64,000 nucleotides of DNA from Glutamicibacter protophormiae. GTDB taxonomy: Bacteria; Actinomycetota; Actinomycetes; Actinomycetales; Micrococcaceae. This document shows, one piece after another, positions 47,413-62,999 of the stretch. A program made the translations under genes and the position numbers. The stretch is taken from contig NZ_BMPH01000012.1 of the NCBI RefSeq assembly GCF_014647495.1, positions 1 to 64,000 on the forward strand, written 5' to 3'. Position 1 is the first letter of the stretch; each line of letters begins with the position of its first letter. The notes beneath the pieces were generated by a model, which was given only the letters and a program-made list of their open reading frames with translations, made no database searches and was not told where the DNA came from.

Positions 47413-48756
47413 CTAGTCTGCGACGAGCTCCTCGTCCGTACGGGCCACGCGAGGCTGGGCCTCGGTGATGCGCGGCGGGATCAATGCGACGGCACCAGCC
47501 GCAATCACGCCGACGACGGCGAAGAAGATGAAGTTGAACTCGAAGCTGACCCCGGTGGCGGCGATCCAGCCGCCGATGATCGGCCCGGAGATCGCGCCGA
47601 TGCGGGCGAAGGACAGCGCCCAACCGGTTGCAGTGCCGCGCTGTGCCGCCGGGTAGTAGTCGGCGATGTAGCCGGTCAGCACCAGCGACGTGGAGATCGA
47701 CCCGATGCCGGCGAAAGCCACGAGGCACAGGTTCACGAACATGGAATTCGGGAACATCAGCAGCAGGATGCCGCCGGCGCCGAGCAGGTAGAACACCACC
47801 AGGATGATCTTTTGGCCGTACTTGTCGGCGAGATAGCCGAGGATCAGTCCGCCAACTGCGGAAGCCAGCGAGAAGACCAGCAGGAAGGTTAACGACGAGC
47901 CCAGGTCGTAGCCGGCCTTGCGCATGATCTGCGGGAGCCAGGTGTTCAGGCCGTAGACCAGGACCATGCCGCAGAACAGCGAGATCCAGAAGAACACGGT
48001 TGAACGCAGGTACTTGCCGGAGAACATCGCACCCATGACTTCGCGCCAAGGCACCTTCTTGCCAGGGGCCTTGGGTGCCTGCGGCTGGTAGTCGCGGACG
48101 TTGAGTTTTGCTGCCAAGGATTTCGCTTCGGCAATCCGCCCCTTGGACACCAGGTATTCGAGGGATTCGGGTAGCATCCAGGCGATGACCGGCAGGATGA
48201 GCACTGGCAGGGAACCGACGGCGATGACCCAGCGCCAGCCGAGCACCGGCAGCAGCGCCATGGCGACAAGGGCCGCGGCCACGATGCCCAGCGAATAGCC
48301 CGAGTACATGATGCCGTAGTTCAGCGAGCGCTTCTTCGGCGCCGAGTATTCAATGGTCAGAGCCGCGGCGACCGGGATGATGCCACCCATGCCCAGGCCG
48401 CCCAGTAGGCGGAAGAGCCCGAAAAGCTCCGGAGTCGGAGCGAGCGCCGCGCCGGCTTGGGTGATGGTGAAGATGACCATCGAGGCGAGCAGCATCTTCT
48501 TGCGCCCGATGACGTCGCTGAGCGTTCCGATGAACAGCGCGCCGATGAGCATGCCGACCAGCGCGTACGCACCCAGACCGCCAAGCTCAAGCGGGGTCAG
48601 CGACCATTCCTTGTATTCGGCCAGTGCCGGGAGCACCGCACCGAGCACGCCCACGTCGTAGCCTTCGGCCAGAATGGCCATCCAACAGGCGAACAGCACC
48701 AGGCCCGTGGTTCGTTTGGGAATGTTCCATTCCTCGACGTTCTTGACTGTCGCCAT
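47413..48756 (-). CDS. MFS transporter, aromatic acid:H+ symporter type
   Basis: This 447-residue carrier has 12 hydrophobic segments. AILAEGYDVGVLGAVLP in helix 1 carries the Glu/Asp residues typical of AAHS transporters. GTLSDVIGRKK follows helix 2 and YLADKYGQK is the mirrored loop. Such proteins import benzoate-like aromatic acids, for example 4-hydroxybenzoate or indole-3-acetate in other bacteria. It is divergent from the thioesterase gene across a 115-bp region holding a GTGA-N6-TTAC dyad. It is the likely uptake system of the aromatic cluster. The start at 48756 has GAGGAG upstream. Confidence 0.9.
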   Translation of the reverse strand: MATVKNVEEWNIPKRTTGLVLFACWMAILAEGYDVGVLGAVLPALAEYKEWSLTPLELGGLGAYALVGMLIGALFIGTLSDVIGRKKMLLASMVIFTITQAGAALAPTPELFGLFRLLGGLGMGGIIPVAAALTIEYSAPKKRSLNYGIMYSGYSLGIVAAALVAMALLPVLGWRWVIAVGSLPVLILPVIAWMLPESLEYLVSKGRIAEAKSLAAKLNVRDYQPQAPKAPGKKVPWREVMGAMFSGKYLRSTVFFWISLFCGMVLVYGLNTWLPQIMRKAGYDLGSSLTFLLVFSLASAVGGLILGYLADKYGQKIILVVFYLLGAGGILLLMFPNSMFVNLCLVAFAGIGSISTSLVLTGYIADYYPAAQRGTATGWALSFARIGAISGPIIGGWIAATGVSFEFNFIFFAVVGVIAAGAVALIPPRITEAQPRVARTDEELVAD

Positions 48757-48814
48757 GTTGCTCCTCAATTACATGATGCGAAGGAAAACTGATTCCAAAC
48801 ATTATTGCGTTAAC

Positions 48815-48828
48815 GTGACGAGCGTTAC
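48815..48828. promoter_or_regulatory. Crp/GlxR-like site 1 (GTGA-N6-TTAC)
   Basis: GTGACGAGCGTTAC lies between the divergent transporter and thioesterase genes. It differs by one base from the perfect GTGA-N6-TCAC dyads at 56074 and 56955, and has the same CG..CG flanks in the spacer. Confidence 0.5.
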
Positions 48829-48871
48829 AATAGTTCGAGAGAAGATATTTTTGGAACCAGGGGAGTACGAA

Positions 48872-49336
48872 ATGAGCGAAGCGGGACAGGCGCGGCGAAT
48901 TGAAGACGTGATCGAAGACTGCCTTTCGGGGGCAGTGGCCGGTACGGCCAGCGAACGCATCATCGAGTGGGTGGACACCGATGCTGCAGGCCACCAGCAC
49001 AACTCGGTCATCATGAGGTTCGTCGAAGCCGCGGAATCAAAGCTGTTCCGTGAACTTGAACTTCCTGAATACTTTCCCATCGCGCCACGCGTGCGCCAGG
49101 AAGTCGACTACAAGGCCAAGCTCTTTTTCGGGCAGCATGTCACGACTGTGCTGCGCATCGATCGACTGGGGGAGAAATCCCTGAGCTTTTCGTTCAAGGT
49201 TTTCGGCCATGAGCACGAAGGGCGGCCAATCGTTGAAGCCGCTTCGGGCAAGTTCGTCACCGCATGCGTCCCGCTGGGCGCGTTGTCTTCGGCTTCGTGG
49301 CCGGACAATGTCCGCCGCGCAATTATGGGTGGCTAA
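48872..49336 (+). CDS. Hotdog-fold thioesterase-like protein
   Basis: This 154-residue protein has the small helical start and beta-strand pattern of the 4-hydroxybenzoyl-CoA thioesterase family (PRVRQEVDYKAKLFFGQHV, LRIDRLGEKSLSFSFKVFG, FVTACVPLG). Its substrate could be an aromatic acyl-CoA formed downstream of the cluster. The catalytic Asp/Glu is not placed with confidence. The ATG has AGGGGAG upstream. It is divergent from the transporter and convergent with the AraC gene (11 bp between the stops). Confidence 0.75.
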   Translation: MSEAGQARRIEDVIEDCLSGAVAGTASERIIEWVDTDAAGHQHNSVIMRFVEAAESKLFRELELPEYFPIAPRVRQEVDYKAKLFFGQHVTTVLRIDRLGEKSLSFSFKVFGHEHEGRPIVEAASGKFVTACVPLGALSSASWPDNVRRAIMGG

Positions 49337-49347
49337 TAAGGCCGGCG

Positions 49348-50364
49348 CTAATTGCCTTTTCCACGCAGCGTTGCCGAAGGCGAAACGCCGAACTGGTGCT
49401 TGTAGCTCTGCGCGAAGCGCCCCAAATGGGCGAACCCGCAGTCCTGGGCAATCTGCGAAACATTCGCCGACTGCGGGTCGGCCGCAATTAGCAGATCACG
49501 CGCCCGTTCCAGCCGCACCTTGCGCAGCTGGGCGGACGGCGTCGAATTCAGCTCCCGCGCCACGGCTACCTGCAAAGTCCTCGCCGCGACGCCCAGCGCC
49601 TCCGCCATATCCGAAACCGTGAGATCCTCCGCTGAATGGGCCCGCAACAGGGTGAGGAACTCCTGGACCAAACGCGAAGAATAACCGTTGGCAGTCGGGG
49701 CATTCCATTGCTCCATGCTCTGCGCGAGATTCGAGCGATTGGCCATAAGCCAGCGAGCCAGGACCAGCTCGTGCTGCAGCCTTCGCGCGTAATCGCTGTG
49801 CCTGCCGTTTTTCTCATTGTGCATGTCGTGCAGTTCAAAGATTGAACGCATGAATGCCTGCCCCTCGGCGCTGGAAAGATCCATGGACGGTGCCAGTCGC
49901 AGCGAGCCGTCGATCTGCGCCCCATAGAGGCTCTGCGCCGCGGATTCCAGCGCCGCGCGTGGCGCGGTCAGAATCACCTGCGGGGTATTTTTCTCCCAAT
50001 TCATGGAGAACTCGGCATCAATCGGCGGCACCGAGGCGATCTGCGGCGTGGAAACCACCTGCTGGCGACCGATTTGGAGGTCCGCGCGCCCTGAGAGCGG
50101 AATCTGCACCATGTAGAAAGTCTTCAGAGCCTCGGGGCTGATTTTCACGGACGCGCCGTAATCCAGCAGGTGCAGGCCGATGCCGGCGCCAGTTGAACGC
50201 AGATTCATCTTCAGTGTGCCCTGGGAAGCGCCCTTCTGCAGCTTGTGCGGGCAGAAGAGTGTGCCAATTTTCTCCCGCGCCTCGTGCAGGTCCGCGGTGG
50301 CAAGGGTCGGCAGCTGATCCAGAACGCGAGTTGAAGCTGGGCTCGCAAGAGGCTGGCTGAGCAT
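49348..50364 (-). CDS. AraC family regulator of the aromatic cluster
   Basis: This 338-residue regulator has an N-terminal AraC_binding_2-like domain (FYMVQIPLSGRADLQIGRQQ) and a C-terminal AraC double HTH (VSDMAEALGVAARTLQVAV, VSQIAQDCGFAHLGRFAQSYK). The ATG at 50364 has AAGGAG 8 bases upstream. It is divergent from the SDR gene, sharing a 141-bp region with a 42-bp dyad and one Crp/GlxR-like site. Its position at the head of the monooxygenase operon suggests that it activates it. The effector (indole, isatin or a related compound) is not known. Confidence 0.88.
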   Translation of the reverse strand: MLSQPLASPASTRVLDQLPTLATADLHEAREKIGTLFCPHKLQKGASQGTLKMNLRSTGAGIGLHLLDYGASVKISPEALKTFYMVQIPLSGRADLQIGRQQVVSTPQIASVPPIDAEFSMNWEKNTPQVILTAPRAALESAAQSLYGAQIDGSLRLAPSMDLSSAEGQAFMRSIFELHDMHNEKNGRHSDYARRLQHELVLARWLMANRSNLAQSMEQWNAPTANGYSSRLVQEFLTLLRAHSAEDLTVSDMAEALGVAARTLQVAVARELNSTPSAQLRKVRLERARDLLIAADPQSANVSQIAQDCGFAHLGRFAQSYKHQFGVSPSATLRGKGN

Positions 50365-50388
50365 GACGGGCGCTCCTTCGGGTGTCCA

Positions 50389-50430
50389 TGCGTACTTTGG
50401 ATATCTGCTGCGTGCAGCGGATAGTACGCA
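50389..50430. promoter_or_regulatory. 42-bp nested dyad in the AraC leader
   Basis: TGCGTACT (50389-50396) is the exact complement of AGTACGCA (50423-50430). Inside, ATCTGCTGC (50403-50411) pairs with GCAGCGGAT (50414-50422) with one wobble. It lies 25-66 bp before the AraC start and could be an autoregulatory site. Confidence 0.5.
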
Positions 50431-50468
50431 CCCCTGAGGCGAAGTAAGTTCTATCCAGAACACCAATT

Positions 50469-50482
50469 ATGACATGCGTCAC
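50469..50482. promoter_or_regulatory. Crp/GlxR-like site 2 (ATGA-N6-TCAC)
   Basis: ATGACATGCGTCAC lies 23 bp before the SDR start. The right half matches the perfect sites; the left half has two changes. Confidence 0.4.
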
Positions 50483-50505
50483 AGCATGGGAAAGTCGAGG
50501 GTGCA

Positions 50506-51294
50506 ATGGAAGTACTGCAGGATCGCGTTGTTCTGGTGACCGGAGGTGCCACCAAGGTAGGCGTGGGAATTGTCCAGTGCCTGGCACGCTCCGGAGCGCA
50601 CGTCATCGTTGTGGACATCGACGCCGAGGGCGGCGCCCAACTGACCGAGCAGATTCCGCAGGTCGAATTCCACACCCTGGACATCACCGACGACAGTGCC
50701 ATCGGCTCGCTGATGGACTCCATCTCGCAGCGCTTTGGCAAGCTCGACGGACTGGTCAACCTGGCCTGCAGCTACCTCGACGAAGGCGCAAACTCGCCGC
50801 GCGCCGACTGGCTGACCGCATTGAACATCAACGTGGTCTCCGCCGTGGTGCTGGCCAACTCGGCACGGCCGCTGCTGGCAGCATCCGGCCATGGCGCCAT
50901 CGTCAACTTCACCTCGATCTCCAGCTCCGTGGCGCAGACCGGCCGCTGGCTGTACCCGGCCAGCAAGGCGTCGCTGGTGCAGATCACCCGCTCCATGGCG
51001 GCTGACCTCGCCGCCGACGGCATTCGTGTGAACTCGGTCAGCCCGGGCTGGACCTGGTCCAAGATCATGGACACGCTCAGCGGCGGCAACCTTGAGAAGA
51101 CCGACTCAGTGGCGGCCCCATTCCACATCCTGGGTCGAGTCGGTCGCCCCGAGGAAGTCGGCGAGGTCGTCGCATTCCTGCTCTCGGACAAGGCCTCTTT
51201 CGTGACCGGTGCCGACTGGGCCGCCGACGGCGGATACTCCGCCCTGGGCCCGGAACGCAATGAACCCGCCATCCCGCTGCTCGCCGCTGAATAG
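50506..51294 (+). CDS. Short-chain dehydrogenase/reductase
   Basis: This 262-residue SDR has VVLVTGGATKVGVGIVQCL (cofactor-binding Gly motif), VVDIDAE (an Asp favouring NAD), NFTSISSSVAQTGRWLYPASKASL with the catalytic Ser, Tyr and Lys, and a typical SPGWTWSKIMD segment. It is the first gene of the StyA1/StyA2B operon (52 bp before styA1). In the described indole clusters an SDR next to the monooxygenase handles the dihydrodiol or hydroxy-indolinone, so the same role is inferred here. Confidence 0.9.
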   Translation: MEVLQDRVVLVTGGATKVGVGIVQCLARSGAHVIVVDIDAEGGAQLTEQIPQVEFHTLDITDDSAIGSLMDSISQRFGKLDGLVNLACSYLDEGANSPRADWLTALNINVVSAVVLANSARPLLAASGHGAIVNFTSISSSVAQTGRWLYPASKASLVQITRSMAADLAADGIRVNSVSPGWTWSKIMDTLSGGNLEKTDSVAAPFHILGRVGRPEEVGEVVAFLLSDKASFVTGADWAADGGYSALGPERNEPAIPLLAAE

Positions 51295-51346
51295 CCAGCC
51301 TGCCAAGCAACACCCGCACACCGCAAAACCCGAAGGATTGACGAAC

Positions 51347-52582
51347 ATGGATTCACGACACATCACCATCGTCGGCGCCGGACAGTCCGGCCTGCAGCTG
51401 GGCATCGGCCTGCTTGATGCCGGCTACCAGGTCACCCTGATTTCCAACCGCACCCCGGAACAGATCCGCGACGGCTCCATCGCCTCCAGCCAGTGCATGT
51501 TCGACCAGGCGCTGGGACACGAACGCGCCCTGGGCCTGGACCTCTGGCCGGATGCACCGGTTGTGGAAGGTATTTCCTTCACCATTGCCCCCACCGAAGC
51601 ACCGGGTGTGAAGGCCATCAGCTGGGACCACCGGCTGGACGCCACGGCGCAGTCCATCGACCAGCGAGTCAAGTTCCCGGCCTTCATGGCCGAATTCGAG
51701 AAGCGCGGCGGCACCTTGGTCTTCGAGGACGCCGGTATCGCGGAACTGGAACGCTACGCGGAAAACAGCGACATGGTCCTGGTTGCCGCCGGCAAGGGCG
51801 AAATTGCCCAGCTGTTCACCCGCGACGACCAGCGCAGCCACTACGCGGCCCCGCAGCGCGCGCTGGCCTTAACTTACGTGAACGGCATGACCCCGCGCGA
51901 GGAATTCTCCGCCGTGAACTTCAACGTCATCCCGGGCGTCGGCGAATACTTCGTCTTCCCGGCGCTGACCACCACCGGGCCCTGCGAGATCATGGTCTTC
52001 GAAGGATTGCCCGGATCCGACATGGATTCCTGGAAGGGGCTGACCCCGGCGGAGCACCTGGAAAACTCGCTGCGCATCCTGCGCACCCACCTGCCATGGG
52101 AATACGAGCGCAGCGCCAACGTCGAACTCACCGATGCCAACGGCGTGCTGCAGGGACGCTTCCCGCCAACAGTCCGCCACCCGCTGGCCACCCTGCCCTC
52201 GGGCAAGACCGTGGTCGGCATGGCCGATGTAGTGGTGCTCAACGACCCGATCACCGGCCAGGGCTCGAACAACGCCTCCAAGTGCGCCGCCAGCTACCTG
52301 GCCTCGATCATCGGCCACGGGGACGCCGCATACGACGACTCCTTCAAGACCTCGATGTTCGAAGAGTACTGGAAGTACGCGCAGCACGTGGCCCGCTGGA
52401 CCAACACCATGCTGGCCCCGCCGGCCGAGCACGCACTGAGCCTGTTCGCCGCAGCGCAGCAGAACCCCTCCATCGCCCAGCGCTTCGCCAACGGCTTCGA
52501 CTACCCGCCGGACTTCGGCTCGTGGTTCCTGGACGCCCAGGGCGCCGCAGACTACCAGGCCTCGTTCAACACCGTGGCCTAG
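51347..52582 (+). CDS. styA1: Styrene/indole monooxygenase component StyA1
   Basis: This 411-residue FAD-dependent monooxygenase has the Rossmann motif VGAGQSGLQL, the conserved SSQCMFDQALGHERALGL segment, PGVGEYFVFPAL and the late VVLNDPITGQGSNNASKCA motif. It lacks a reductase domain, so it needs reduced FAD from elsewhere. Proteins of this type epoxidise styrene or, for the actinobacterial StyA1/StyA2B pair, preferentially indoles. It stops 20 bases before the StyA2B fusion. An indole role is inferred from context. Confidence 0.92.
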   Translation: MDSRHITIVGAGQSGLQLGIGLLDAGYQVTLISNRTPEQIRDGSIASSQCMFDQALGHERALGLDLWPDAPVVEGISFTIAPTEAPGVKAISWDHRLDATAQSIDQRVKFPAFMAEFEKRGGTLVFEDAGIAELERYAENSDMVLVAAGKGEIAQLFTRDDQRSHYAAPQRALALTYVNGMTPREEFSAVNFNVIPGVGEYFVFPALTTTGPCEIMVFEGLPGSDMDSWKGLTPAEHLENSLRILRTHLPWEYERSANVELTDANGVLQGRFPPTVRHPLATLPSGKTVVGMADVVVLNDPITGQGSNNASKCAASYLASIIGHGDAAYDDSFKTSMFEEYWKYAQHVARWTNTMLAPPAEHALSLFAAAQQNPSIAQRFANGFDYPPDFGSWFLDAQGAADYQASFNTVA

Positions 52583-52602
52583 ATCAGCCAAGGAGCAACA
52601 TC

Positions 52603-54330
52603 ATGCGAAAAATTGCAATCGTCGGAGCCGGCGAATCCGGCGCCCAGCTGGCCCTGGAACTGCAGCGGCTGGAACACGAAGTCACCCTGTTCTCCGACCG
52701 CTCCGCGGCCGAAATCCGCAGCGGAACGATCACCTCCAGCCAGTGCGTCTTCTCCTCCGCGCTGCGGGTCCAGCTGCCGCTGGAGATCCCCGGCGCAGAC
52801 AGCACGTCGATAGGCATCACCGGGATGACCTTCAACATCAAGCCAGAAGAAGGCGAAGCCATCTCCTGGCATGGATCGCTGGAAAACCCGGCGATGTCCG
52901 TGGACCAGCGCGTGAAGTGCGCGCTCTGGATTGAGCAGTTCATCACCCGCGGAGGCGACTTCCGCATCGAGAAGCTCAACGTCAAGCGCCTGGATGAACT
53001 GGCCGCGCTCTACGACCTGGTGGTCGTCTGCACCGGCAAGGGCGAACTCGGGCAGATCTTCTCCACCGACAAGTCGCGCAGCCCCTACGACCGTCCGCAG
53101 CGCGCCGTCGCGGTGACCTACGTGAAGCCGGCCCAGAACAGCGGGCCGGAGAACACGAACGAAATCCGCATGAACATGCTCCCGGGCATCGGCGAATTCT
53201 TCACCTTCCCGGGGTTGAGCACCGAAGGCGCCTGCCAGATGATGGTCTTCGAGGGCATCCCGGGCGGGCCGATGGATTGCTGGGACACCGTCTCGGATGC
53301 CGACGGGCACTGGGAGACCTCCCTGTCCATCCTGCGCGAGCACTTCCAGGCTGAATACGAGCTGTTCAAGGACAGCAAGCTCAACGATCCCGGAGCCTGC
53401 CTGCGCGGGCGCATCACCCCGGTGGTGCGCCATGCGGTGGGCAGCCTGCCCGGCGGGCGCTCCGTGCTGGGCCTGGGCGACGCCATCATGCTCAATGACC
53501 CGGTGACCGGCCAGGGATCCAACAACGCGACCCTCGCGGCCGACCACTACGCCCGGGCGATCCACATCCACGGCGACGCGCCCTTCGACGAGGCATGGAT
53601 GACGCGGACCTTCGACGAATACTGGCGCGGCTGGGGCCAGTTCTCCACGGTGTGGACCAACTCGATGCTGCGCAGCAAGGACGGATGGCAGCTGGAGGTG
53701 CTGGCCAAGGCCAGCGAGCACCAGGCGCTCGCCGACTCCTTCGCCAACGGCTTCGACGACCCGCGGACGCTGTTCCCCTGGTGGTTCGACCGCCAGGAAG
53801 CCTCGGGCTTCGTCGAGCGGATCGTCGCCGAGGAAGGCGCGGCCTTCGACCTGCGCGACTTCCGCACCACCCTGGGCCAGTTCGCCACCGGAGTGACAGT
53901 GGTGACCACCCGCACCCCGCAGGGCGCGAAGGTCGGCATGACCGCCAACTCCTTCACCTCGGTGTCGATGGATCCGCCGCTGGTGCTGTGGTGCCCGAGC
54001 AAATTCGCCCCGTCGCTGCCTGACTTCGAGGCGGCAACGCACTTCGCCATCAATGTGCTTGAATCCTCGCAGCACGTGCTCTCGCGCCAGTTCGCCACCC
54101 CCGCCGATGACAAGTTTGCCGGAGTGAGCATTTCCGAGGGCGTCGCCGGGCTGCCGTTGCTCGACGGTTCGGTGGCAACGTTCGAATGCCGGACAGTGGC
54201 TCGCCACGAGGCAGGGGATCACGTAATTTACGTGGGTGAGGTGGAGAAGTACTCTCGGGCCGACGGGGATCCGCTGGTATTCCACGCCGGGGCCTACCAC
54301 AGCACCGAGCTTCATCCGGATTTCAAGTAG
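52603..54330 (+). CDS. styA2B: StyA2B: styrene/indole monooxygenase fused to flavin reductase
   Basis: This 575-residue protein combines a StyA-type FAD monooxygenase (1 to about 405; VGAGESGAQLALEL, SSQCVFSSALRVQLPLEI, MLNDPVTGQGSNNATLA) with a StyB-type flavin reductase (about 425-575; GQFATGVTVVTTRTP, MTANSFTSVSMDPPLVLWC). Such self-sufficient fusions were first described in Rhodococcus opacus 1CP, where a StyA1 is encoded just before it, exactly as here. The reductase half can also feed StyA1. It is placed 20 bases after styA1 and has AAGGAG upstream. It oxidises indole or styrene in vitro. Confidence 0.95.
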   Translation: MRKIAIVGAGESGAQLALELQRLEHEVTLFSDRSAAEIRSGTITSSQCVFSSALRVQLPLEIPGADSTSIGITGMTFNIKPEEGEAISWHGSLENPAMSVDQRVKCALWIEQFITRGGDFRIEKLNVKRLDELAALYDLVVVCTGKGELGQIFSTDKSRSPYDRPQRAVAVTYVKPAQNSGPENTNEIRMNMLPGIGEFFTFPGLSTEGACQMMVFEGIPGGPMDCWDTVSDADGHWETSLSILREHFQAEYELFKDSKLNDPGACLRGRITPVVRHAVGSLPGGRSVLGLGDAIMLNDPVTGQGSNNATLAADHYARAIHIHGDAPFDEAWMTRTFDEYWRGWGQFSTVWTNSMLRSKDGWQLEVLAKASEHQALADSFANGFDDPRTLFPWWFDRQEASGFVERIVAEEGAAFDLRDFRTTLGQFATGVTVVTTRTPQGAKVGMTANSFTSVSMDPPLVLWCPSKFAPSLPDFEAATHFAINVLESSQHVLSRQFATPADDKFAGVSISEGVAGLPLLDGSVATFECRTVARHEAGDHVIYVGEVEKYSRADGDPLVFHAGAYHSTELHPDFK

Positions 54331-54336
54331 ACCAAA

Positions 54337-54363
54337 GCGCCTGCGCCTTTTCGGCGCAGGCGC
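54337..54363 (+). terminator. Hairpin after styA2B
   Basis: GCGCCTGCGCC (54337-54347) pairs perfectly with GGCGCAGGCGC (54353-54363) with a TTTTC loop. The next gene starts 34 bases later, and no U-tract follows, so it may only attenuate the transcript. Confidence 0.55.
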
Positions 54364-54397
54364 CTGGGCAACCAGAATTGCAACAGTAGGGGAGAAG

Positions 54398-56005
54398 ATG
54401 CACAGCGACTACGTCATCATCGGTTCGGGAATCAATTCCCTGGTGGCCGCCGCGGAACTGGCAGGCGCCGGGGCCTCGGTCACGCTGCTGGAGCAGCACG
54501 AGAAGATCGGCGGATTCATCGATTCCGGGGAATTGACGTTGCCCGGATTCATCCACGATACGTATTCCTCCTGGCATCCGCTGTTCGTCTCAGGATCGGG
54601 TTATGCGGCCCTGGGCGAAGACCTCCACCGCCATGGCCTGCGCTACCGCAACACCGAGGACGTCGGCACACAGTGGGTGACCGCCAGTATCGGAACCGAC
54701 GCCGAAGGCAGGCGGCTCACGTCGATGGCCACCCGCGACCCGAAGGCTACCGCGGACCTGTTCGAAAATGACGGCGACCGGCTGGCCTACCTGCAGATGA
54801 TGGAGGAGTTCGGCGCCCAAGCGCCTGTGGTCTTCGGAGCCTTGAGCAGCGAGATGACCTGGCCGGCCCTGGCCAAGCTCGGATTCAAGGCGCTGCGCAT
54901 GGGGGTGGGCAATGCGCAGAACCTGGTGAGGCAGGCGCTGATGAGCGGGCGCAACTACACCCGGAGCCGTTACGCAGGAACTGAAGCAGACCAGCTGTGG
55001 GCCCCGTGGCTGCTGCACGCCGGGTTGGGCCCGGAACAGGCCAGCGGCGGCATCATGCTCCCCGTGATGGCCGCCAGCATGCACCAGTTCGGGCTTCCGG
55101 TGGTTGAAGGCGGCGCCGGGAACTTCCTGAAGGCCTTCGAAGCGCTGCTGATCGAACGCGGAGTCGATATCCGCACCGGAACGAAGGCACAGCGCATCGG
55201 CGCTTTGAACGCCGGCGCCCGGAGCGTGTCCACCGACCAGGGCGAATTCGCCGCCGACATCGCGGTGCTGGCCTCCGTCTCGGTACCGGGGCTCTACGAC
55301 GGGCTGCTCGAAGGCGAGGACACCTCAAAATCCTTCCCGCGCGAGACGAAATCCTATCTTCCCGGACGCGCCGCGATGCAGGTGCACCTGGCACTGGACG
55401 CGCCGGTTCCCTGGGTCGACCAGAGGCTTGCCACCACACCGCTGGTCCATCTGACCACCGGTTCGGATTCCACGGCCATTGCCTGCGCCCAAGCTGAAGC
55501 CGGGCTGCTACCAGCGGAGCCCACGGTTGTGGTGGGCCAACAATGCGTGCTGGACCCGAGTCGCGCGCCGGAGGGCAAGGCGACGCTGTGGATCCAACTG
55601 CAGGAACTCCCGTTCGCCCCACGCGGCGATGCCTCCGGCGAGCTGGAGACTTCCAACGGCTGGGACGAGGACCTGGTTGAGAAGTACATGGATCGAGTGC
55701 TGGATCGCATCGAGCAGTTCGCACCGGGATTCCGGGACCTCGTGCTGGCCCGCACGGCGATCAGCCCTGCGGCGCTCGCCGAAGCCAACCCCAACGCGGT
55801 GGCCGGGGATCCCTATGGGGGCTCGGCCGAGTTGTTCCAGAACCTGCTGTGGAGGCCGGTGCCCAGCGCCGGTCGGGGCCGGCAGCCGGCCAAGGGTGTC
55901 TGGCATATTGGCGCTGCAAGCCACCCCGGCCCGGGCCTGGGCGGCGGCTCCGGCCATCTGGCGGCGCAGCAGCTGATCCGCGCGGCCAAACGTGGCAGGA
56001 AATAG
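54398..56005 (+). CDS. FAD-dependent oxidoreductase, phytoene-desaturase-like
   Basis: This 535-residue flavoprotein has an N-terminal dinucleotide motif (YVIIGSGINSLVAAAELAGAGASVTLLEQHEKIGG), a central substrate domain and the C-terminal FAD contact GVWHIGAASHPGPGLGGGSGHLAAQ. This is the pattern of the phytoene dehydrogenase/amine-oxidase-like superfamily (also PYROXD2). No signal peptide. It could oxidise a cluster intermediate such as the indole dihydrodiol or dioxindole; that is inferred from its position between StyA2B and the cyclase. It is probably in the same operon as styA2B. Confidence 0.85.
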   Translation: MHSDYVIIGSGINSLVAAAELAGAGASVTLLEQHEKIGGFIDSGELTLPGFIHDTYSSWHPLFVSGSGYAALGEDLHRHGLRYRNTEDVGTQWVTASIGTDAEGRRLTSMATRDPKATADLFENDGDRLAYLQMMEEFGAQAPVVFGALSSEMTWPALAKLGFKALRMGVGNAQNLVRQALMSGRNYTRSRYAGTEADQLWAPWLLHAGLGPEQASGGIMLPVMAASMHQFGLPVVEGGAGNFLKAFEALLIERGVDIRTGTKAQRIGALNAGARSVSTDQGEFAADIAVLASVSVPGLYDGLLEGEDTSKSFPRETKSYLPGRAAMQVHLALDAPVPWVDQRLATTPLVHLTTGSDSTAIACAQAEAGLLPAEPTVVVGQQCVLDPSRAPEGKATLWIQLQELPFAPRGDASGELETSNGWDEDLVEKYMDRVLDRIEQFAPGFRDLVLARTAISPAALAEANPNAVAGDPYGGSAELFQNLLWRPVPSAGRGRQPAKGVWHIGAASHPGPGLGGGSGHLAAQQLIRAAKRGRK

Positions 56006-56073
56006 TTGGACTTTCAACCGCGAGTACTTCCCAGCGCGAATTTCCGCTGATAGATTATATTCATGCAAATGTT

Positions 56074-56087
56074 GTGACGCTCGTCAC
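56074..56087. promoter_or_regulatory. Crp/GlxR-like site 3 (GTGA-N6-TCAC)
   Basis: GTGACGCTCGTCAC is a perfect dyad, and the flanking T at 56073 gives TGTGA. It lies 41 bp before the cyclase start. Confidence 0.6.
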
Positions 56088-56128
56088 GATTATTCTATAT
56101 GCAGTTCTTTCCCGTTCTTGGAGGCGTA

Positions 56129-56896
56129 ATGACTCAGGTAAACCAGGTATTGGCATCATTGGCTACCGGCGCGGTAACCGTCCATGACCTCACCGCTCCA
56201 CTGTCCAAAGACACCCCGACGTTGGTTCTGCCCGAGCCCTTCTCGAATCTGATCGACTTCAGCCTCGATGAGGTATCGGCCTACAACGAGCCCGGCCCGT
56301 TCTGGAAGCATCACAACATCCATACCGGCGAGCACATCGGGACCCACATCGATGCCCCGGTGCACTGGATCTCGGGGCGCGAGGGCAAGGACGTCTCCCA
56401 GATCGACCCGCAGCGCCTGGTCGGCCCGGCGGTGGTGCTGGACTTCAGTGCCGAGGCCGCGGCGGATCCGGACTACCTGATCAGCGTCGAGGACCTGAAG
56501 TCGTGGCAGAAGACCCATGGGGAGTTCCCGGCTAATGCCTGGCTGCTCTTCCGTACCGGCTGGGACCAGTATGGCGAGGACCGTGCGGCCTTCCTGAACC
56601 TGGATGAAAACGGTTCGCACACCCCGGGGTTCACAGCCGAGTGCGCCAAATACATCGCCGAGGAACTCGACGTCTCCGGAGTCGGCGTGGAGACCGTGGG
56701 CATTGATGCGGGCAACGCGGCACTGCTCGACCCGCCGTTCCCTATGCACTATTTCCTGCTGGGCAACGACAAGTACGGCATCACGTCGCTGAAGAACCTG
56801 GACAAGCTGCCGGCGTTCGGAGCGATGATCGTTGTCGCGCCGCTGCCGATCGTGGGCGGCACCGGTGCGCCGACGCGCGTGCTGGCACTGATGTAG
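56129..56896 (+). CDS. Cyclase-family metal hydrolase, isatin-hydrolase-like
   Basis: This 255-residue protein has the family metal motif HxGTHxDxPxH as HIGTHIDAPVH (His69, His73, Asp75, His79). NIHTGEHIGTHIDAPVHW resembles isatin hydrolase and kynurenine formamidase relatives. Isatin hydrolase opens isatin to isatinate. In a cluster with indole monooxygenases, this is the likeliest role. GIDAGNAALLDPPFPMHYFLLGND follows. The ATG at 56129 has GGAGGC upstream. A perfect GTGA-N6-TCAC dyad lies 41 bp before it. Confidence 0.88.
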   Translation: MTQVNQVLASLATGAVTVHDLTAPLSKDTPTLVLPEPFSNLIDFSLDEVSAYNEPGPFWKHHNIHTGEHIGTHIDAPVHWISGREGKDVSQIDPQRLVGPAVVLDFSAEAAADPDYLISVEDLKSWQKTHGEFPANAWLLFRTGWDQYGEDRAAFLNLDENGSHTPGFTAECAKYIAEELDVSGVGVETVGIDAGNAALLDPPFPMHYFLLGNDKYGITSLKNLDKLPAFGAMIVVAPLPIVGGTGAPTRVLALM

Positions 56897-56923
56897 TCAC
56901 GCGCTCCGGAGGTCATCGCAAAG

Positions 56924-56952
56924 CGGATAGCGGATAGCGCCGAACGGATAGC
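56924..56952. repeat. Three CGGATAGC repeats upstream of the reductase gene
   Basis: CGGATAGC occurs at 56924-56931, 56931-56938 and 56945-56952, offset by 7 and 14 bases. The third copy ends 3 bp before the Crp/GlxR-like dyad at 56955. It may be an activator-binding array, for example for one of the AraC proteins. Confidence 0.5.
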
Positions 56953-56954
56953 TG

Positions 56955-56968
56955 GTGACGTACGTCAC
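56955..56968. promoter_or_regulatory. Crp/GlxR-like site 4 (GTGA-N6-TCAC)
   Basis: GTGACGTACGTCAC is a perfect 14-bp palindrome, 62 bp before the flavin reductase start. Confidence 0.6.
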
Positions 56969-57029
56969 TTGCCATTATTGATCCAACAACGCAGAAGCGT
57001 TGGGACATCGATACTGCGAGGTAGCCATC

Positions 57030-57488
57030 ATGACAACGTCGACAGCCCTGAAGGAACCCGACACCCAGGTTTCCGGGCAGGAACTCCGCGAGGCAATGCG
57101 CGTCTGGACCACCGGCACCACGATCGTGACCGCCCGCGAGCCGGGCGGTCAGCGGATCGGGCTGGTATCCAACTCGTTCACCTCGGTCTCGCTGAATCCG
57201 CCGCTGGTCTCCTGGTGCGTGGACAAGGGATCTTCGGCGATCGACGCATGGATGGCCGCCGAGGCGTTCTCGGTCCACATCCTGGCTGACGGCCAGGAAC
57301 ACTGGATCCGGAAGTTCGCCACCCGCGGAGCCGACAAATTCCAGGGTGTGGAAACAACCTCCAGCCTGCTCGGCACCCCGGTGCTGGAGATTCCGGGAAC
57401 CCGGATGGACTGCCAGGTAGTCCAGCTCCACGAGGCGGGGGACCACTACATCCTGTTGGGCCAGGTCCACCGGATCGAAGCACGATGA
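57030..57488 (+). CDS. Flavin reductase (StyB/HpaC-like)
   Basis: This 152-residue protein is a stand-alone flavin reductase: REAMRVWTTGTTIVTAREP, IGLVSNSFTSVSLNPPLVSWCV and HEAGDHYILLGQVHRIEA. It supplies reduced flavin to a two-component monooxygenase. Its stop overlaps the start of the LLM-class monooxygenase gene (ATGA), so that is the natural partner. It may also help StyA1. The ATG at 57030 follows GAGGTAGCCATC. Its promoter region has a Crp/GlxR-like palindrome. Confidence 0.91.
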   Translation: MTTSTALKEPDTQVSGQELREAMRVWTTGTTIVTAREPGGQRIGLVSNSFTSVSLNPPLVSWCVDKGSSAIDAWMAAEAFSVHILADGQEHWIRKFATRGADKFQGVETTSSLLGTPVLEIPGTRMDCQVVQLHEAGDHYILLGQVHRIEAR

Positions 57489-58624
57489 CCAGCAACCACA
57501 ATTTCGGACAGGACAACACCATGACTCGACAGATTCTCGACCGCAAGGATTTCAAGCTCGGACTGTTCTCCTCGAACTGCTCCGGCGGTCTGGCAGTGAC
57601 CAAGATCGACGAACGCTGGGGAGCCACCTGGGAAGAGAATCTGGCGATGGCCAAGGCCGCGGACCGGTTGGGCTTCGACTTCCTGCTTCCCATCGCCCGC
57701 TGGATCGGCTACAAGGGCGACACCAACTTCCACGGCAGCGTCCTGGACCCAATAGTCTGGGCCGCAGCGCTGATCAGCAGCACAGAGCGGATCAACGTCT
57801 TCTCCACCATCCACACCGCGTTCAACCACCCGATGGTCACCGCCAAGCAGATGGCGACCCTCGACCAGCTCGGCGGCGGCGGCCGCGCCGGATTGAACAT
57901 CGTCGCCGGCTGGAACCAGCCGGAATACGAGGCCATGGGAACCCTCATGCCGCACGAGCACGATGACCGCTACAGCTTCGCCCAGGAATGGGCCGACGTC
58001 GTCCTGGCCGCCTGGCAGGAACCGGGAATCTTCAACATGGAGACCAAGCACTTCAAGCTGCGCGGGGCCGAATCCGAACCGAAGCCGCAGGGCAACAAGG
58101 TGCCGATCCTTAACGCCGGATCTTCGGGCCAGGGCCGGGCCTACGCCGCCAAGAACTCGGACTTCGTGTTCACCATCGTGCCTGACGTGGCCACCGGCGC
58201 CACGATCGCCGCGACCGTGAAGGAACAGGCCCGCACCGAATTCGACCGCGAGGTCGGCGTCTTCACCCTGGGTCACGTGGTCTGCCGCGACACCCGCGAA
58301 GAGGCCGAGGAATACCTAAAGTACTACGCCCGGGACAACGCCGACTGGGGCGCGGTGGACTACCTGATGGGCCTGCAGGGCCTGCATGCCCAGTCCTTCA
58401 CCCCGGAAATGCTCGCCACCATGCGCGACCGCTTCGCCTCCGGCCACGGCTCGCTGCCGCTGGTGGGCACCCCGGAGGATGTCGCGGACCAGATCACCGC
58501 CTTGTACGAGGCGGGTTTCGAGGGCATGACGCTGGCATTCGTCGACTACGTGACCGAGCTTGAATACTTCGGGCAGAAGGTGCTTCCGATCCTGGAAGCC
58601 AGAGGTGTACGGTTGCCGCGTTAG
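57485..58624 (+). CDS. LLM-class flavin monooxygenase, RutA-like
   Basis: This 379-residue protein has the TIM-barrel pattern of bacterial luciferase-like flavoproteins: FDFLLPIARWIGYKGDT, ERINVFSTIHTAFNHPMV, GGRAGLNIVAGWNQPEYEAMG, PILNAGSSGQGRAYAA. The pattern is closest to the RutA branch, whose members can hydrolytically cleave amide bonds through a flavin-N5-oxide. It uses the flavin reductase encoded 4 bases before. A role in opening an indole-derived lactam ring is a hypothesis. A terminator follows. Confidence 0.9.
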   Translation: MTSNHNFGQDNTMTRQILDRKDFKLGLFSSNCSGGLAVTKIDERWGATWEENLAMAKAADRLGFDFLLPIARWIGYKGDTNFHGSVLDPIVWAAALISSTERINVFSTIHTAFNHPMVTAKQMATLDQLGGGGRAGLNIVAGWNQPEYEAMGTLMPHEHDDRYSFAQEWADVVLAAWQEPGIFNMETKHFKLRGAESEPKPQGNKVPILNAGSSGQGRAYAAKNSDFVFTIVPDVATGATIAATVKEQARTEFDREVGVFTLGHVVCRDTREEAEEYLKYYARDNADWGAVDYLMGLQGLHAQSFTPEMLATMRDRFASGHGSLPLVGTPEDVADQITALYEAGFEGMTLAFVDYVTELEYFGQKVLPILEARGVRLPR

Positions 58625-58640
58625 GCGGCTAAGGACGGCA

Positions 58641-58664
58641 GGGCCCCGCAATGGTGCGGGGCCC
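58641..58664 (+). terminator. Terminator after the LLM monooxygenase gene
   Basis: A perfect 10-bp stem GGGCCCCGCA/TGCGGGGCCC (58641-58650 with 58655-58664) with an ATGG loop. No clear U-tract. Confidence 0.7.
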
Positions 58665-58705
58665 ATGCCCCGTGCTACAGGGAAAACTCGCTAAGGAGGA
58701 TGATC

Positions 58706-59707
58706 ATGACTGAGTTGTCGACGACCGGTCATTCGGCGGCAGGTGGGATGCTGACCCAGCACCCGGTCGCCCGGAGCACCGATCCGCGCATCATCCGCGA
58801 TGCAGTTAACGAACTGACCCTCGACCAGCACGCCCTGCGCCTGAACAGCGGGGTGGCTTTGAACGGCTCCGTCAACGGCACCAGCCTGGGCCCGCTGTCC
58901 CTGGTCCACGTGGCCTATGGCGAAGAAGTCACCATCACCTCCCCGCCGACCGGTGAGCGCATCCTGGTTGTCTTCCCGCTCGGCCCGATGGCCGTCGAAT
59001 CCAGTTCGCACCAGTGGAAATCCGTAGCCCCCTTCGCACTGAGCACCTCCCGGACCACGCTGATGATCCCGGACGCCGGACGCGGGGCGCTGATCGGCGG
59101 GATGGAATCGAAGGTCGCCGCGGAGTACTTCGCCCGCATCAGCGGCAGGAACCTGGCCGCCGGCATCAGCCTGGATTCGAGCACGCCCCTGCAGCTTGCC
59201 GCACCGAACCTGGTGGCCCACACCTGGATGGAATCCTGTCTGGCCCTGGGCGAGCTGGGTGTCGCCCCCGAAGCGCATATCGGACAGACCCTGCTGAACA
59301 CGTTCATCTCGACCCTGCTGCTCGGATTGACCCCGCATCTGGACTGCTTTGAGCAGCCGCAGCAGGCGCCCAGCGGATATCCCGACTACCTGCAGGCGGC
59401 CAAGAATTTCATCGACGAGAATTTCGCGCACATCACGCGGATCTCGACGGTGGCCCAAACCGTCGGCATCAGCTCGCGGCAGCTGCAGCATGTCTTCACC
59501 CGGCACCTGGGCACCACGCCGGTCCAGTACCTGCGCGAGGTGCGCCTGCTGGCGGCCCACCAACTGCTGCTGGGAGCCAACCCGGCCCAGGGCGACAGCG
59601 TCAGCTCCATCGCCTCCAAGGTGGGCTTCGACCACCTCGGACGCTTCTCTGCCTACTACGGGCAGAAGTTCGGCTCCGCCCCTTCGCGGACCCTCGCCGC
59701 GGCCTGA
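58706..59707 (+). CDS. Second AraC family regulator of the aromatic cluster
   Basis: This 333-residue regulator has an N-terminal AraC_binding_2-type domain and a C-terminal HTH pair (ISTVAQTVGISSRQLQHVFT, SSIASKVGFDHLGRFSAYYG). The ATG at 58706 is 6 bases after AAGGAGG; ATG 58700 would be too close. It stands 47 bp before the TPP enzyme gene and is likely co-transcribed with it. It differs from the first AraC protein, so two inputs may converge on the cluster. Confidence 0.88.
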   Translation: MTELSTTGHSAAGGMLTQHPVARSTDPRIIRDAVNELTLDQHALRLNSGVALNGSVNGTSLGPLSLVHVAYGEEVTITSPPTGERILVVFPLGPMAVESSSHQWKSVAPFALSTSRTTLMIPDAGRGALIGGMESKVAAEYFARISGRNLAAGISLDSSTPLQLAAPNLVAHTWMESCLALGELGVAPEAHIGQTLLNTFISTLLLGLTPHLDCFEQPQQAPSGYPDYLQAAKNFIDENFAHITRISTVAQTVGISSRQLQHVFTRHLGTTPVQYLREVRLLAAHQLLLGANPAQGDSVSSIASKVGFDHLGRFSAYYGQKFGSAPSRTLAAA

Positions 59708-59754
59708 CATTTCGACCAGTTTGTAATTACCACTCGCCATCAAAGGAACCGTCC

Positions 59755-61407
59755 ATGAATGTTGCAGAACTTGTAGGAAAAACCCTCGCGGAGCTCGGCG
59801 TAGGACATGTCTTCGGTGTTGTCGGCAGCGGCAACTTCGCCATTACCAATGCCCTAATCCAGCAGGGTGTGCCCTACACGGCCGCGCGCCACGAGGGCGG
59901 GGCGGCGACGATGGCCGATTCCTACTCCCGCACCAGCGGGCAGGTCGGCGTAGTCTCGGTGCACCAGGGATGCGGCCTGACCAATGCGGCCACCGGCATC
60001 GGTGAGGCGGCCAAGTCGCGCACGCCGATGATCGTGCTGGCCGCCGAAGCTGCCCCGAGCGCCGTGTATTCGAACTTCGCCATGGACCAAGACTCGTTCT
60101 CCACCTCCGTCTACGCGGTGTCGGAGCGGATCCACAGCGCGCAGACCGCGGTGGCAGATACGGTGCGCGCCTACCGCACCGCTGTCAACGACCGCCGGAC
60201 CGTGGTGCTCAACCTTCCGCTGAACGTGCAGGCGCTGCCGGCCCCCGAAACCGTGGAGCCCATCGAGGTGGTGCCCCGCGAACCGATCCGCCCATCGCGC
60301 GATGCCGCGCGCGCCCTGGCGGTCCTCTTGGAGAACGCGCAGCGCCCGGTCTTCGTTGCCGGGCGCGGCGGCCGCGGCGCCAAGCAGGAGATCCTCGCCC
60401 TGGCCCGCCACACCGGCGCGCTGGTGGCCACCTCGGCAGTGGCCAAGGGATTGTTCAACGAGGACGACTTCAACCTGGGCATTTCCGGCGGCTTTTCCTC
60501 GCCGCTGACCGCCGAGCTCATCTCCTCGGCGGACCTGATCGTCGGGTTTGGCTGCGCGCTGAACATGTGGACGATGCGCCACGGGCACCTGATCGGCCAG
60601 GACGCCAAGGTGGTCCAGGTGGATCTGGACGAGCCGGCGCTGGGAGCCAACCGCCCCATCGACCTGGGTGTCGTGGCGGACAGCGCCGAATGCGCCAAGG
60701 ACGTGCTGGAGCTGCTGCTCGCCCAGAAGACCGCTGTCCGCGAAAGCTACCGCACCGCCGAGGTGAAGGAGCGCCTTGACGCCCAGGCCCGTTGGCAGCA
60801 GGTCGACTATGCGGATCTGGGCACCGATTCCTCGATCGATCCGCGGACGCTGACCAAGGCCCTGGACGAGATCCTCCCGGCCGACCGCGTAGTGAGCGTC
60901 GATTCGGGCAACTTCATGGGATACCCGAGCCAGTTCCTCGACGTGCCCGACGAGCACGGCTTCTGCTTCACCCAGGCGTTCCAGTCCATCGGCCTGGGCC
61001 TCTACACCGCGATCGGCGCGGCGCTGGCGCAGCCGGAGCGGCTGCCGGTGCTGGGCACCGGCGACGGCGGCTTCCACATGGCGATCGCCGAGCTGGATAC
61101 CGCGGTGCGCCTGAAGCTCCCGCTGGTCTGCATTGTCTACAACGACGCGGCCTACGGCGCCGAGGTGCACCACTTCGGCGAGGCCGAGGATGTTCCGGAC
61201 ATGGGCTCGGTGGTGTTCCCCGAAACTGATTTCGCCGCCATTGGCAGCGGCTTCGGTGCCGACGGCATCACCGTGCGCACCCTCGCGGACCTGGATGCCG
61301 TGAAGCATTGGGTGGATTCAAACCCTGCCAAGCCCTTGGTGATCGACGCGAAGATCGCCTCGGATGGCGGCGCGTGGTGGCTAGCCGAGGCCTTCAAGGG
61401 GCACTAG
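59755..61407 (+). CDS. Thiamine-diphosphate-dependent decarboxylase-type enzyme
   Basis: This 550-residue protein belongs to the acetolactate synthase/benzoylformate decarboxylase group: [39 protein letters not shown] with the activating Glu, and the TPP motif [20 protein letters not shown] ending in [11 protein letters not shown]. Three domains of the usual lengths are present. Isatinate is a 2-aminophenylglyoxylate, an analogue of benzoylformate, so decarboxylation of it to 2-aminobenzaldehyde or an equivalent is the natural hypothesis here. Direct evidence is absent; the central FAD-like domain could still be structural. Confidence 0.88.
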
Positions 61408-61639: not shown

Positions 61640-62999
61640 ATGTCAATACCTCCGGGAGCCTTGATACGTTGCCTCAGATGAAAACCTCCGCGAAATAGGT
61701 GGTTCATTGCACTGCCTTCCTCGCCTGCCGGGCCGAGGACCCGGACTTCGCAACGGATAACTTCTCCAGACGGCCGGTGAGCTCCAGGATCTGCTGGGAC
61801 AAGGCCATGACCCGGATTTTCTTGAACGCGGCGTTCATCCGGATGACCGGCATCTTCCGCACTGCTGGATGCGCTACCGCCCGCTGATGCGGTGTGGCTG
61901 GCCGGTCATGGACCATGGTGACCTTCGCGCCGTGGCGGGTCTTGGAAACCAGCTTCTGCTGCGGCAGCAGGTAGTTCGTGAAGATCCGATCCAGTTCCCA
62001 AATCTGGTTGAGTAGCTCCAGTTCCTCGGGGCTGTCGTAGCGTTGGTAGCCGACCAGTTCGCGGACCCGTGACCAGTTCTTCTGCTCCACGTGCGCGCCG
62101 TCATTCTTGTTCCCTGCCCGGGAACGGGTGAACGTGATCTGCTGCTCCTGGCAGAAGCGCAGCAGCTCCTGATTGATGAACTCGCTGCCGTTATCCGAGT
62201 CGATGCCGATGATCGGGAACGGGAAGACCTCCATGACATGCATCAACGCGGCGAACACGTGCTTCTGTGCCTTGTTGCGCACCGAGCGGTTCACGGTCCA
62301 CCCGGTGCTGATATCGGTGACGGTCAGGGTGAAGCAGAACTCGCCTTGGCTGACACCGCCTTCCTGGCCGACCAGATCGATCTCCACGAAGCCGGGGACC
62401 GCGTCGTCCCATTCGGCCCAGGTGCGCACCGGGATCTGGGACTTGAGTAGGGAACCGGGCTTGGTATGCGAACGGCCCCGAAGGGCTATCTTCTTCCGTT
62501 CGTTCGCCAGCCTGCGGTCGATGGTCGAGGCGCTCATCCGCAGCAACAGTGCTGCTTGCGCGTCGGTGACGTCCAAGGCTTTCTCGCTGCGTAGCTTGGG
62601 CACGAGGTAGGGCATGGAAGCCACCAGCAGTTTGGAGGCCGGGCCGCGCAGCACCGCCCAGCACACGATCAGCGCCGGTTGCAGGTCTGCCGGGTAGGTG
62701 GGTTTCCGGCCGGCCCGCACGATGCGCGGCGTGGGCGGTTTCAGTGCTTGGCGCAGGGCGGCGCGGGCGTAGTCGCGGTGCCAGCCGGTCAGCGCGGTCA
62801 GCTCGTCCAGGATCTGTGATTTGCTGGGCTTGTCCGCGCGTTGGTAGCGGTGGGCGAGCTTCTTGGTGACTTCTTTGCGTGCGCTCATTGTCAGTCCCAT
62901 GGTGCTGAGCAGATACCCGAAGATCCCGAGAATCAAGAGCTGTTGTGCCGGAGGTTTTCTTGTGACGCAGCGTAGTATCCGTGCCGGAGGCTTTTTATG
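61640..62999 (-). mobile_element. DDE insertion sequence with about 50-bp imperfect terminal repeats
   Basis: Both ends carry CCTCCGG and, 36 bases further in, AAAACCTCCG: left at 61649-61655 and 61681-61690, right on the minus strand at 62990-62984. The arms match at roughly two thirds of 46 positions. The single intact transposase lies between. No target duplication could be placed with confidence. The element marks the right border of the aromatic cluster. Confidence 0.75.
61704..62888 (-). CDS. IS transposase, integrase (rve) DDE type, IS481/IS1202-like
   Basis: This 394-residue protein starts MSARKEVTKKLAHRYQRADK with an N-terminal HTH region (ILDELTALTGWHRDYARAAL). The rve core has the DDE residues in FVEIDLVGQEGG, IGIDSDNGSEFINQEL and NDGAHVEQKNW. 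A basic C-terminal part follows. ATG at 62888 is used; ATG at 62900 would add four residues. The frame is open and looks intact. Naming the family is by resemblance; a database comparison would settle IS481 versus IS1202. Confidence 0.9.
   Translation of the reverse strand: MSARKEVTKKLAHRYQRADKPSKSQILDELTALTGWHRDYARAALRQALKPPTPRIVRAGRKPTYPADLQPALIVCWAVLRGPASKLLVASMPYLVPKLRSEKALDVTDAQAALLLRMSASTIDRRLANERKKIALRGRSHTKPGSLLKSQIPVRTWAEWDDAVPGFVEIDLVGQEGGVSQGEFCFTLTVTDISTGWTVNRSVRNKAQKHVFAALMHVMEVFPFPIIGIDSDNGSEFINQELLRFCQEQQITFTRSRAGNKNDGAHVEQKNWSRVRELVGYQRYDSPEELELLNQIWELDRIFTNYLLPQQKLVSKTRHGAKVTMVHDRPATPHQRAVAHPAVRKMPVIRMNAAFKKIRVMALSQQILELTGRLEKLSVAKSGSSARQARKAVQ

Follow-up and report, generated by a model that had tools for sequence, protein, structure and literature searches.

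Described indole routes and the Glutamicibacter island

The iif/ind clusters of Acinetobacter, Cupriavidus and Burkholderia, which lead from indole to anthranilate, combine an indole monooxygenase with an IifB-like short-chain dehydrogenase/reductase (SDR), a flavin reductase and an AraC regulator. IifC and IifD convert indole to the 2,3-dihydrodiol, from which IifB forms 3-hydroxyindolin-2-one (PMC6221969). In its accessible text, the same 2018 review leaves open whether isatin is a true intermediate of indole degradation or an artefact, and notes that the iif cluster lacks genes for isatin formation or use (PMC6221969). Here we describe an island of twelve genes in a 64,000-nucleotide stretch of Glutamicibacter protophormiae (assembly GCF_014647495.1, contig NZ_BMPH01000012.1, positions 1 to 64,000), called the window below and lying on contig 12 (C12) of an assembly of 38 contigs and 3.83 Mb. 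The island has the components listed for iif/ind and would yield the same product, but differs in two respects: IifA, a dienelactone-hydrolase-like oxygenase, is replaced by a flavin adenine dinucleotide (FAD) enzyme, a cyclase and a thiamine diphosphate (ThDP) enzyme, and the monooxygenase is a StyA1/StyA2B pair. Taken as a whole, the island is rather likely to encode an upper indole-degrading pathway through isatin. Since it offers candidate genes for each step from indole to anthranilate in one operon, and relatives share the set, the isatin question becomes testable; the candidates cover steps without assigned genes, namely the oxidation of dioxindole to isatin and the conversion of isatinate to anthranilate.

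Other described systems share parts of this arrangement. The cluster of Providencia rettgeri GS-2, for which isatin was detected, likewise has a PF04199 cyclase, an SDR, a StyA-like oxygenase, a flavin reductase and an AraC regulator, but the accessible part of the report describes no ThDP enzyme, and its authors proposed N-formylanthranilate (PMC9871250). The iad pathway of indole-3-acetate (IAA) degradation in Variovorax and Bradyrhizobium also involves C8H7NO2 (which fits dioxindole), C8H7NO3 and anthranilate, and includes IadI, annotated as a kynurenine formamidase. It differs in beginning from IAA with a Rieske oxygenase, and no enzyme is assigned beyond IadI, the step from isatinate to anthranilate being without an enzyme assignment in the accessible text of the IAA work (PMC9613470, PMC12633357). 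The StyA1/StyA2B layout is that of IndA1/IndA2B of R. opacus 1CP, now classed as an indole monooxygenase (PMC13101518) and compared here by layout.

The twelve island genes named in an earlier, sequence-only reading of the window are all present with open reading frames, and family searches agree with them. From the SDR gene (50506) to the end of the ThDP gene (61407), nine genes are co-directional, with intergenic gaps of 20 to 133 bp. The genes of the proposed core route, together with those of the lower operon for anthranilate-coenzyme A (CoA) metabolism, are as follows.

50506-51294 (+): SDR dehydrogenase, IifB-like (NF006121, 386.7 bits)
51347-52582 (+): StyA1, indole-monooxygenase-type oxygenase (IndA1) (537 bits to 7z4x; PF17885, 145 bits)
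52603-54330 (+): StyA2B, oxygenase-flavin reductase fusion (Smoa_sbd 118.8 bits, Flavin_Reduct 141.1 bits)
54398-56005 (+): CrtI/CrtO-like FAD oxidoreductase, candidate dioxindole-to-isatin oxidase (family searches; co-occurrence with StyA1)
56099-56896 (+): isatin-hydrolase-like cyclase, motif HIGTHIDAPVH (251 bits to LaIHA 5nnb)
59755-61407 (+): ThDP enzyme, candidate isatinate decarboxylase (TPP_enzyme N/M/C domains)
63935-64000 (-): 3' end of the anthraniloyl-CoA hydroxylase/reductase gene; the operon extends beyond the window
G000:C12:63941-66331: hydroxylase/reductase, gene of the lower operon nearest the window
C12 66413-68029: CoA ligase, next in the lower operon
to about 71900 on C12: TesB, small cupin, FAH, RidA and PaaX, rest of the lower operon

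From the observed gene content, linkage, co-occurrence and homology we infer the following reactions. StyA1, with reduced FAD supplied by StyA2B, would convert indole to its epoxide; the SDR would convert the 2,3-dihydrodiol to 3-hydroxyindolin-2-one (dioxindole), which the CrtI-like FAD enzyme may oxidize to isatin; the cyclase would hydrolyse isatin to isatinate (2-aminophenylglyoxylate); and the ThDP enzyme would remove CO2 from isatinate to give anthranilate, directly or via 2-aminobenzaldehyde, for the CoA operon just beyond the window end. This core route, from indole through isatin and isatinate to anthranilate, had already been proposed in the sequence-only reading, and is supported by linkage, by the exchange of the ThDP enzyme with another enzyme type and by the adjoining anthranilate operon; the part of that proposal which is not supported is the luciferase-like monooxygenase (LLM) with its reductase as a core step (see the last section). 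The individual parts come from known families or from near them; the novelty is in the arrangement, a variant form of indole catabolism.

The upper module and the cyclase

StyA1 carries an Smoa_sbd domain (PF17885, 145 bits) and is nearer to indole monooxygenase than to styrene monooxygenase. It scores 537 bits to structure 7z4x, which we take to be an indole monooxygenase (the database labels it only as a flavoprotein oxygenase subunit), vs 132 bits to the styrene monooxygenase 3ihm, and its 224 bits to the styrene StyA model NF045732 fall below the cut-off of 550. Burkholderia, Azospirillum and Alloyangia each have an oxygenase, encoded beside a related SDR, with which StyA1 shares 56-59% identity; the Burkholderia one (56%) is from an iif-like cluster. 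By homology, StyA1 is of the indole-monooxygenase type. At the positions of the fingerprint S46-Q48-M50-V/I73-I76-A96, reported for indole monooxygenases (IMO, group E2; PMC13101512), it has S, Q, M, V and I as read by eye from the alignment, with position 96 unplaced. The island SDR is 59% identical to that of the Burkholderia cluster, in which genes for a dienelactone-hydrolase-like protein, SDR, IMO and reductase stand together in iif-like fashion, and the layout is of iif type in that the SDR gene adjoins the monooxygenase gene and an AraC regulator is present. The gene for the FAD enzyme, a distant CrtI/CrtO relative according to family and structure-database searches, lies between those of the oxygenase and the cyclase, a position that fits a candidate isatin-making oxidase; in the 75-locus set described below it is present in 11/11 cyclase loci with a StyA-type gene, and in 11 cyclase loci without one.

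Co-occurrence was assessed in 295 genomes of the family, with cut-offs of E <= 1e-60 for StyA1 and the cyclase, E <= 1e-100 for the FAD enzyme and E <= 1e-120 for the ThDP enzyme. StyA1 was found in 16 genomes, the FAD enzyme in 15, the cyclase in 83 and the ThDP enzyme in 97. All 16 StyA1 genomes have the cyclase (p = 5e-10) and all 16 the ThDP enzyme (p = 8e-9), these values being uncorrected for kinship. StyA1 and the FAD enzyme occur together in 14 genomes (Fisher p = 6e-21); G024 and G206 have StyA1 without the FAD enzyme, and G115 the FAD enzyme without StyA1. In 13 of these 16 genomes the StyA1 gene shares a contig with the ThDP gene, the two being no more than about 10 kb apart; in G024, G206 and G221 they are on separate contigs. 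The sequence-only reading had suggested looking for the same gene set in other actinobacteria; of that set, the run SDR-StyA1-StyA2B-FAD-cyclase-ThDP recurs in 11 other genomes from four genera, which makes the arrangement more than chance. We also would like to mention a plasmid of Streptomyces angustmyceticus (L133:8998-14315) with two styrene/indole monooxygenase genes of StyA1 and StyA2B sizes, after which another FAD monooxygenase and a vicinal oxygen chelate (VOC) protein stand in place of a cyclase; these genes possibly constitute a further indole route.

The cyclase is the sole PF04199 match in the genome at E <= 0.001, and shares 47% identity with the isatin hydrolases LaIHA and RsIHA, both of which are among the 43 rows of the alignment used here (LaIHB was not aligned). 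The motif HxGTHxDxPxH noted earlier takes the form HIGTHIDAPVH. The metal ligands His69, His73 and Asp75 and the catalytic residues His79, Asp193 and His207 are retained in the island protein, and these six residues as well as Trp80 are invariant across 43/43 rows. Differences from the two isatin hydrolases include Tyr204 to Phe and Trp61 to His. Judged from its sequence, the island cyclase probably works like an isatin hydrolase. An Azospirillum locus with the order AraC-SDR-IMO-reductase-transporter-FAD-cyclase encodes a cyclase that matches LaIHA at all eleven residues checked.

Proposed isatinate decarboxylation, the lower operon and competing explanations

With its TPP_enzyme N, M and C domains, the ThDP enzyme belongs by sequence to the ThDP decarboxylase superfamily; Glu47, the activating glutamate, and His70 are invariant in 22 aligned homologues. 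The predicted model (mean predicted local distance difference test score, pLDDT, 81) is similarly close to ThDP enzymes with different activities, and each of the 50 structural matches listed is a ThDP enzyme. The score to the benzoylformate decarboxylase model NF005485 is 155 bits, under the cut-off of 493. The cyclase is co-located in 21 of the 23 Micrococcaceae loci around the ThDP gene, either adjacent to it or separated from it by the LLM cassette, and the cyclase/ThDP pair also occurs in Deinococcus, R. erythropolis R138 and Nonomuraea. On a plasmid of Deinococcus psychrotolerans (L135:8902-10179 and L002:9222-11635) the pair is found inside an anthranilate operon, and a gene of indole-monooxygenase type is located on the same plasmid at a distance of ~195 kb.

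In Tsukamurella and Alloyangia, IorA/IorB, an indolepyruvate ferredoxin oxidoreductase (IOR), replaces the ThDP enzyme beside the cyclase, the FAD enzyme and anthraniloyl-CoA genes. In a pattern-based, non-exhaustive scan, named genomes yielded 76 cyclase loci, 75 of which were analysed (a Brucella locus was excluded) up to 10 kb either side of the cyclase gene; this set holds near-duplicates (L190 and L191 share a contig, three loci are from Nocardia carnea and many from Rhizobium). The ThDP enzyme is present in 39 loci, IOR in 16, neither in 20 and both in none. Among loci with the hydroxylase gene in range, a CoA ligase gene accompanies it in 9/10 ThDP loci vs 0/7 others (two with IOR, five with neither enzyme); the tenth ThDP locus, L139, is cut short, and the same genome (G009) shows the ligase in another stretch. 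This is what would be expected if the product were free anthranilate with the ThDP enzyme and its CoA ester with IOR. IOR-type enzymes convert 2-oxo acids to acyl-CoA, and ThDP decarboxylases convert them to an aldehyde or acid. We infer isatinate to be the substrate that suits both enzymes best and that would lead to anthranilate or its CoA ester. Between IadI and anthranilate, the iad work detected C8H7NO3 and C7H7NO (PMC12633357). By our reading of the formulae, which is not the authors' naming, the former fits isatinate and the latter 2-aminobenzaldehyde, giving a chemical precedent for decarboxylation to the aldehyde, with direct formation of anthranilate as the alternative. No mention of an isatinate decarboxylase gene or of a cyclase/ThDP pair was found in the open literature, a scope that leaves out most subscription papers.

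The lower operon extends from C12:63935 to about 71900, with its first 66 bases inside the window. Its CoA ligase (72% identity) and hydroxylase (76%) are orthologous to those of the anthranilate-CoA operon on plasmid pAL1 of Arthrobacter Rue61a, but the latter operon is fed by quinaldine and the former presumably by the indole island. Anthranilate-CoA ligase activity was measured for the Rue61a genes ARUE_113p00220 and ARUE_c41730, and anthranilate degradation in this strain apparently proceeds solely via CoA thioesters (PMC3534580); the pAL1 ligase compared here would be ARUE_113p00220, judging from its position beside the hydroxylase. The relative of the hydroxylase/reductase in locus L063 reaches the NF006101 cut-off, and hydroxylase and ThDP genes lie within one 19-20 kb stretch in 12 of the 23 Micrococcaceae loci. 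The lower-operon loci showed no beta-oxidation genes of the sort found next to the hydroxylase in Deinococcus (L002), and this points to ring cleavage of a 5-hydroxyanthranilate/gentisate-like kind; running counter to this, Rue61a, with its like pAL1 operon, did no more than co-metabolise 5-hydroxyanthranilate (PMC3534580).

Several observations weigh against the proposed pathway. In LaIHA, Gln219 serves as a metal ligand (PMC6117287); 35/43 rows, including the island cyclase, have Thr instead, and the other rows have Gln (7, two of them LaIHA and RsIHA) or Ala (1, Alloyangia). With this fourth protein ligand absent, we term the cyclase an isatin-hydrolase homologue and not a member. For the FAD enzyme, which as noted also occurs in 11 cyclase loci without a StyA-type gene, the PDB offers no close relative, and its predicted model is poor. 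In Tsukamurella (a plasmid record outside the 75-locus set) IOR and a CoA ligase are found together, and five Leucobacter loci (L148, L153, L161, L168, L169), which do hold indole genes, the FAD enzyme, the cyclase and the hydroxylase, are without ThDP enzyme, IOR or CoA ligase in range. An aldehyde dehydrogenase gene was found near 5/75 ThDP loci (one query, several loci being from the same genomes), leaving the aldehyde oxidation unexplained if the product is an aldehyde. Finally, only 3/39 cyclase/ThDP loci have a StyA-type gene in range, so that the pair serves more than indole.

This last count is also the starting point of the alternative that survives best, although we hold it to be unlikely: the cyclase/ThDP pair would be a general isatin/isatinate module fed mainly by other indoles (IAA, skatole, plant indoles), and the StyA1 module would act on such a substrate and not on indole. 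Thiolase genes near the pair in Agrobacterium pusense and, together with a CoA ligase gene, in R. erythropolis R138 are consistent with it, as are two Micrococcaceae loci with thiolase-like and CoA-ligase-like genes resembling IadG/IadF of IAA degradation (PMC12633357). However, both StyA1 and the SDR fit the iif type, and the skatole monooxygenase SkaA is just 27.7-35.1% identical to indole monooxygenases (PMC13101512), vs the 56-59% between StyA1 and oxygenases of indole-type clusters. A little less credible still is that the known iif-type route operates here, dioxindole being converted directly to anthranilate and isatin being a dead-end by-product salvaged by the cyclase and the ThDP enzyme. 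Isatin is indeed held to be a dead end or an artefact in iif strains (PMC6221969), but family searches of the twelve island genes, which did not extend to the rest of the genome, found none of the dienelactone-hydrolase-like IifA type, which catalyses this conversion in iif clusters and has such a gene in the Burkholderia cluster; the operon includes the cyclase gene, and StyA1 is accompanied by the FAD enzyme. We regard as very improbable a cyclase shifted by the Thr at position 219 to another cyclic amide or ester, on whose product the ThDP enzyme would act, since, although both this change and Tyr204 to Phe are found in every actinobacterial and Deinococcus row aligned, the Azospirillum locus has a like set (FAD enzyme, IMO) with the canonical Gln, and the neighbouring operon needs anthranilate.

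Beyond the pathway through isatin proposed for the island itself, we lean, if only slightly, towards a wider interpretation: a second, isatin-based aerobic indole route built from exchangeable modules, in which the ThDP subfamily, as yet without a name, would be the missing isatinate decarboxylase, the CrtI-like flavoenzyme would be the missing dioxindole-to-isatin oxidase, IOR would make anthraniloyl-CoA directly, and the cyclase/ThDP pair would also close the gap in IAA degradation.

Accessory genes, mosaic structure and regulation

The remaining features of the region are listed below.

47413-48756 (-): major facilitator superfamily (MFS) transporter, aromatic acid/H+ symporter type (TIGR00895, 311 bits, under the cut-off of 418.55)
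48815-48828 (no strand): palindrome GTGACGAGCGTTAC between the MFS and thioesterase genes, 1 mismatch to GTGACGNNCGTCAC
48872-49336 (+): hotdog (4HBT) thioesterase (PF13279, 39 bits)
49348-50364 (-): AraC-family regulator 1 (AraC1) (top model AndR NF041686, 148 bits, under the cut-off of 350)
50469-50482 (no strand): imperfect palindrome ATGACATGCGTCAC between the AraC1 and SDR genes, 2 mismatches
56074-56087 (no strand): perfect palindrome GTGACGCTCGTCAC upstream of the cyclase gene (palindrome scan)
56955-56968 (no strand): perfect palindrome GTGACGTACGTCAC upstream of the flavin reductase gene (palindrome scan)
57030-57488 (+): flavin reductase, accessory cassette (PF01613, 110 bits)
57521-58624 (+): LLM (RutA/SfnG-like), accessory cassette (PF00296, 191 bits)
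58706-59707 (+): AraC-family regulator 2 (AraC2), accessory cassette (HTH_18, 77.8 bits)
61649-62990 (-): insertion sequence with rve transposase and imperfect 42-nt terminal inverted repeats, outside the pathway

The sequence-only reading had counted the LLM and its reductase among the pathway steps, a role that the distribution of these genes argues against. The flavin reductase, LLM and AraC2 genes sit between the cyclase and ThDP genes in the island and in G039, from another genus of the family (G009, G010 and G017 are relatives labelled as sharing the genus of the island's host), and are absent from the sister genome G009 (Glutamicibacter soli), where the cyclase gene adjoins the ThDP gene. 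The LLM (E <= 1e-130) occurs in 8/295 family genomes, all eight with the cyclase and three with StyA1, which was not detected at E <= 1e-60 in the other five. On this comparative evidence the three genes form an accessory cassette and not a core step; possible roles for the LLM are oxidation of 2-aminobenzaldehyde or formation of isatin from a different indole. DNA identity to Glutamicibacter soli, taken in 500-bp steps, is 90-100% over 49.5-55.0 kb and 79-88% over 55.0-61.4 kb. The shift, at about 55000, falls within the FAD gene and marks the island as a mosaic, with this point as the likely site of recombination. The insertion sequence, whose terminal inverted repeats are 74% complementary, separates the ThDP gene from the anthranilate operon.

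Orthologues of the MFS transporter, 82-87% identical, are found in four relatives (loci L035-L037 and L063) in which the cyclase and ThDP genes are present and StyA1 is absent from the locus. The thioesterase is 48% identical to a hotdog protein near the pAL1 anthranilate operon of Rue61a. AraC1, which shares 31-33% identity with AraC proteins in the indole clusters of Burkholderia, Azospirillum and Alloyangia, probably controls the upper genes. Palindromes of the GTGACGNNCGTCAC type, presumably CRP/GlxR-like half sites, lie in four intergenic regions of the island (48815, 50469, 56074, 56955), where they would mark the cyclase and transporter promoters; similar palindromes are located upstream of the cyclase and MFS genes in close relatives without StyA1.

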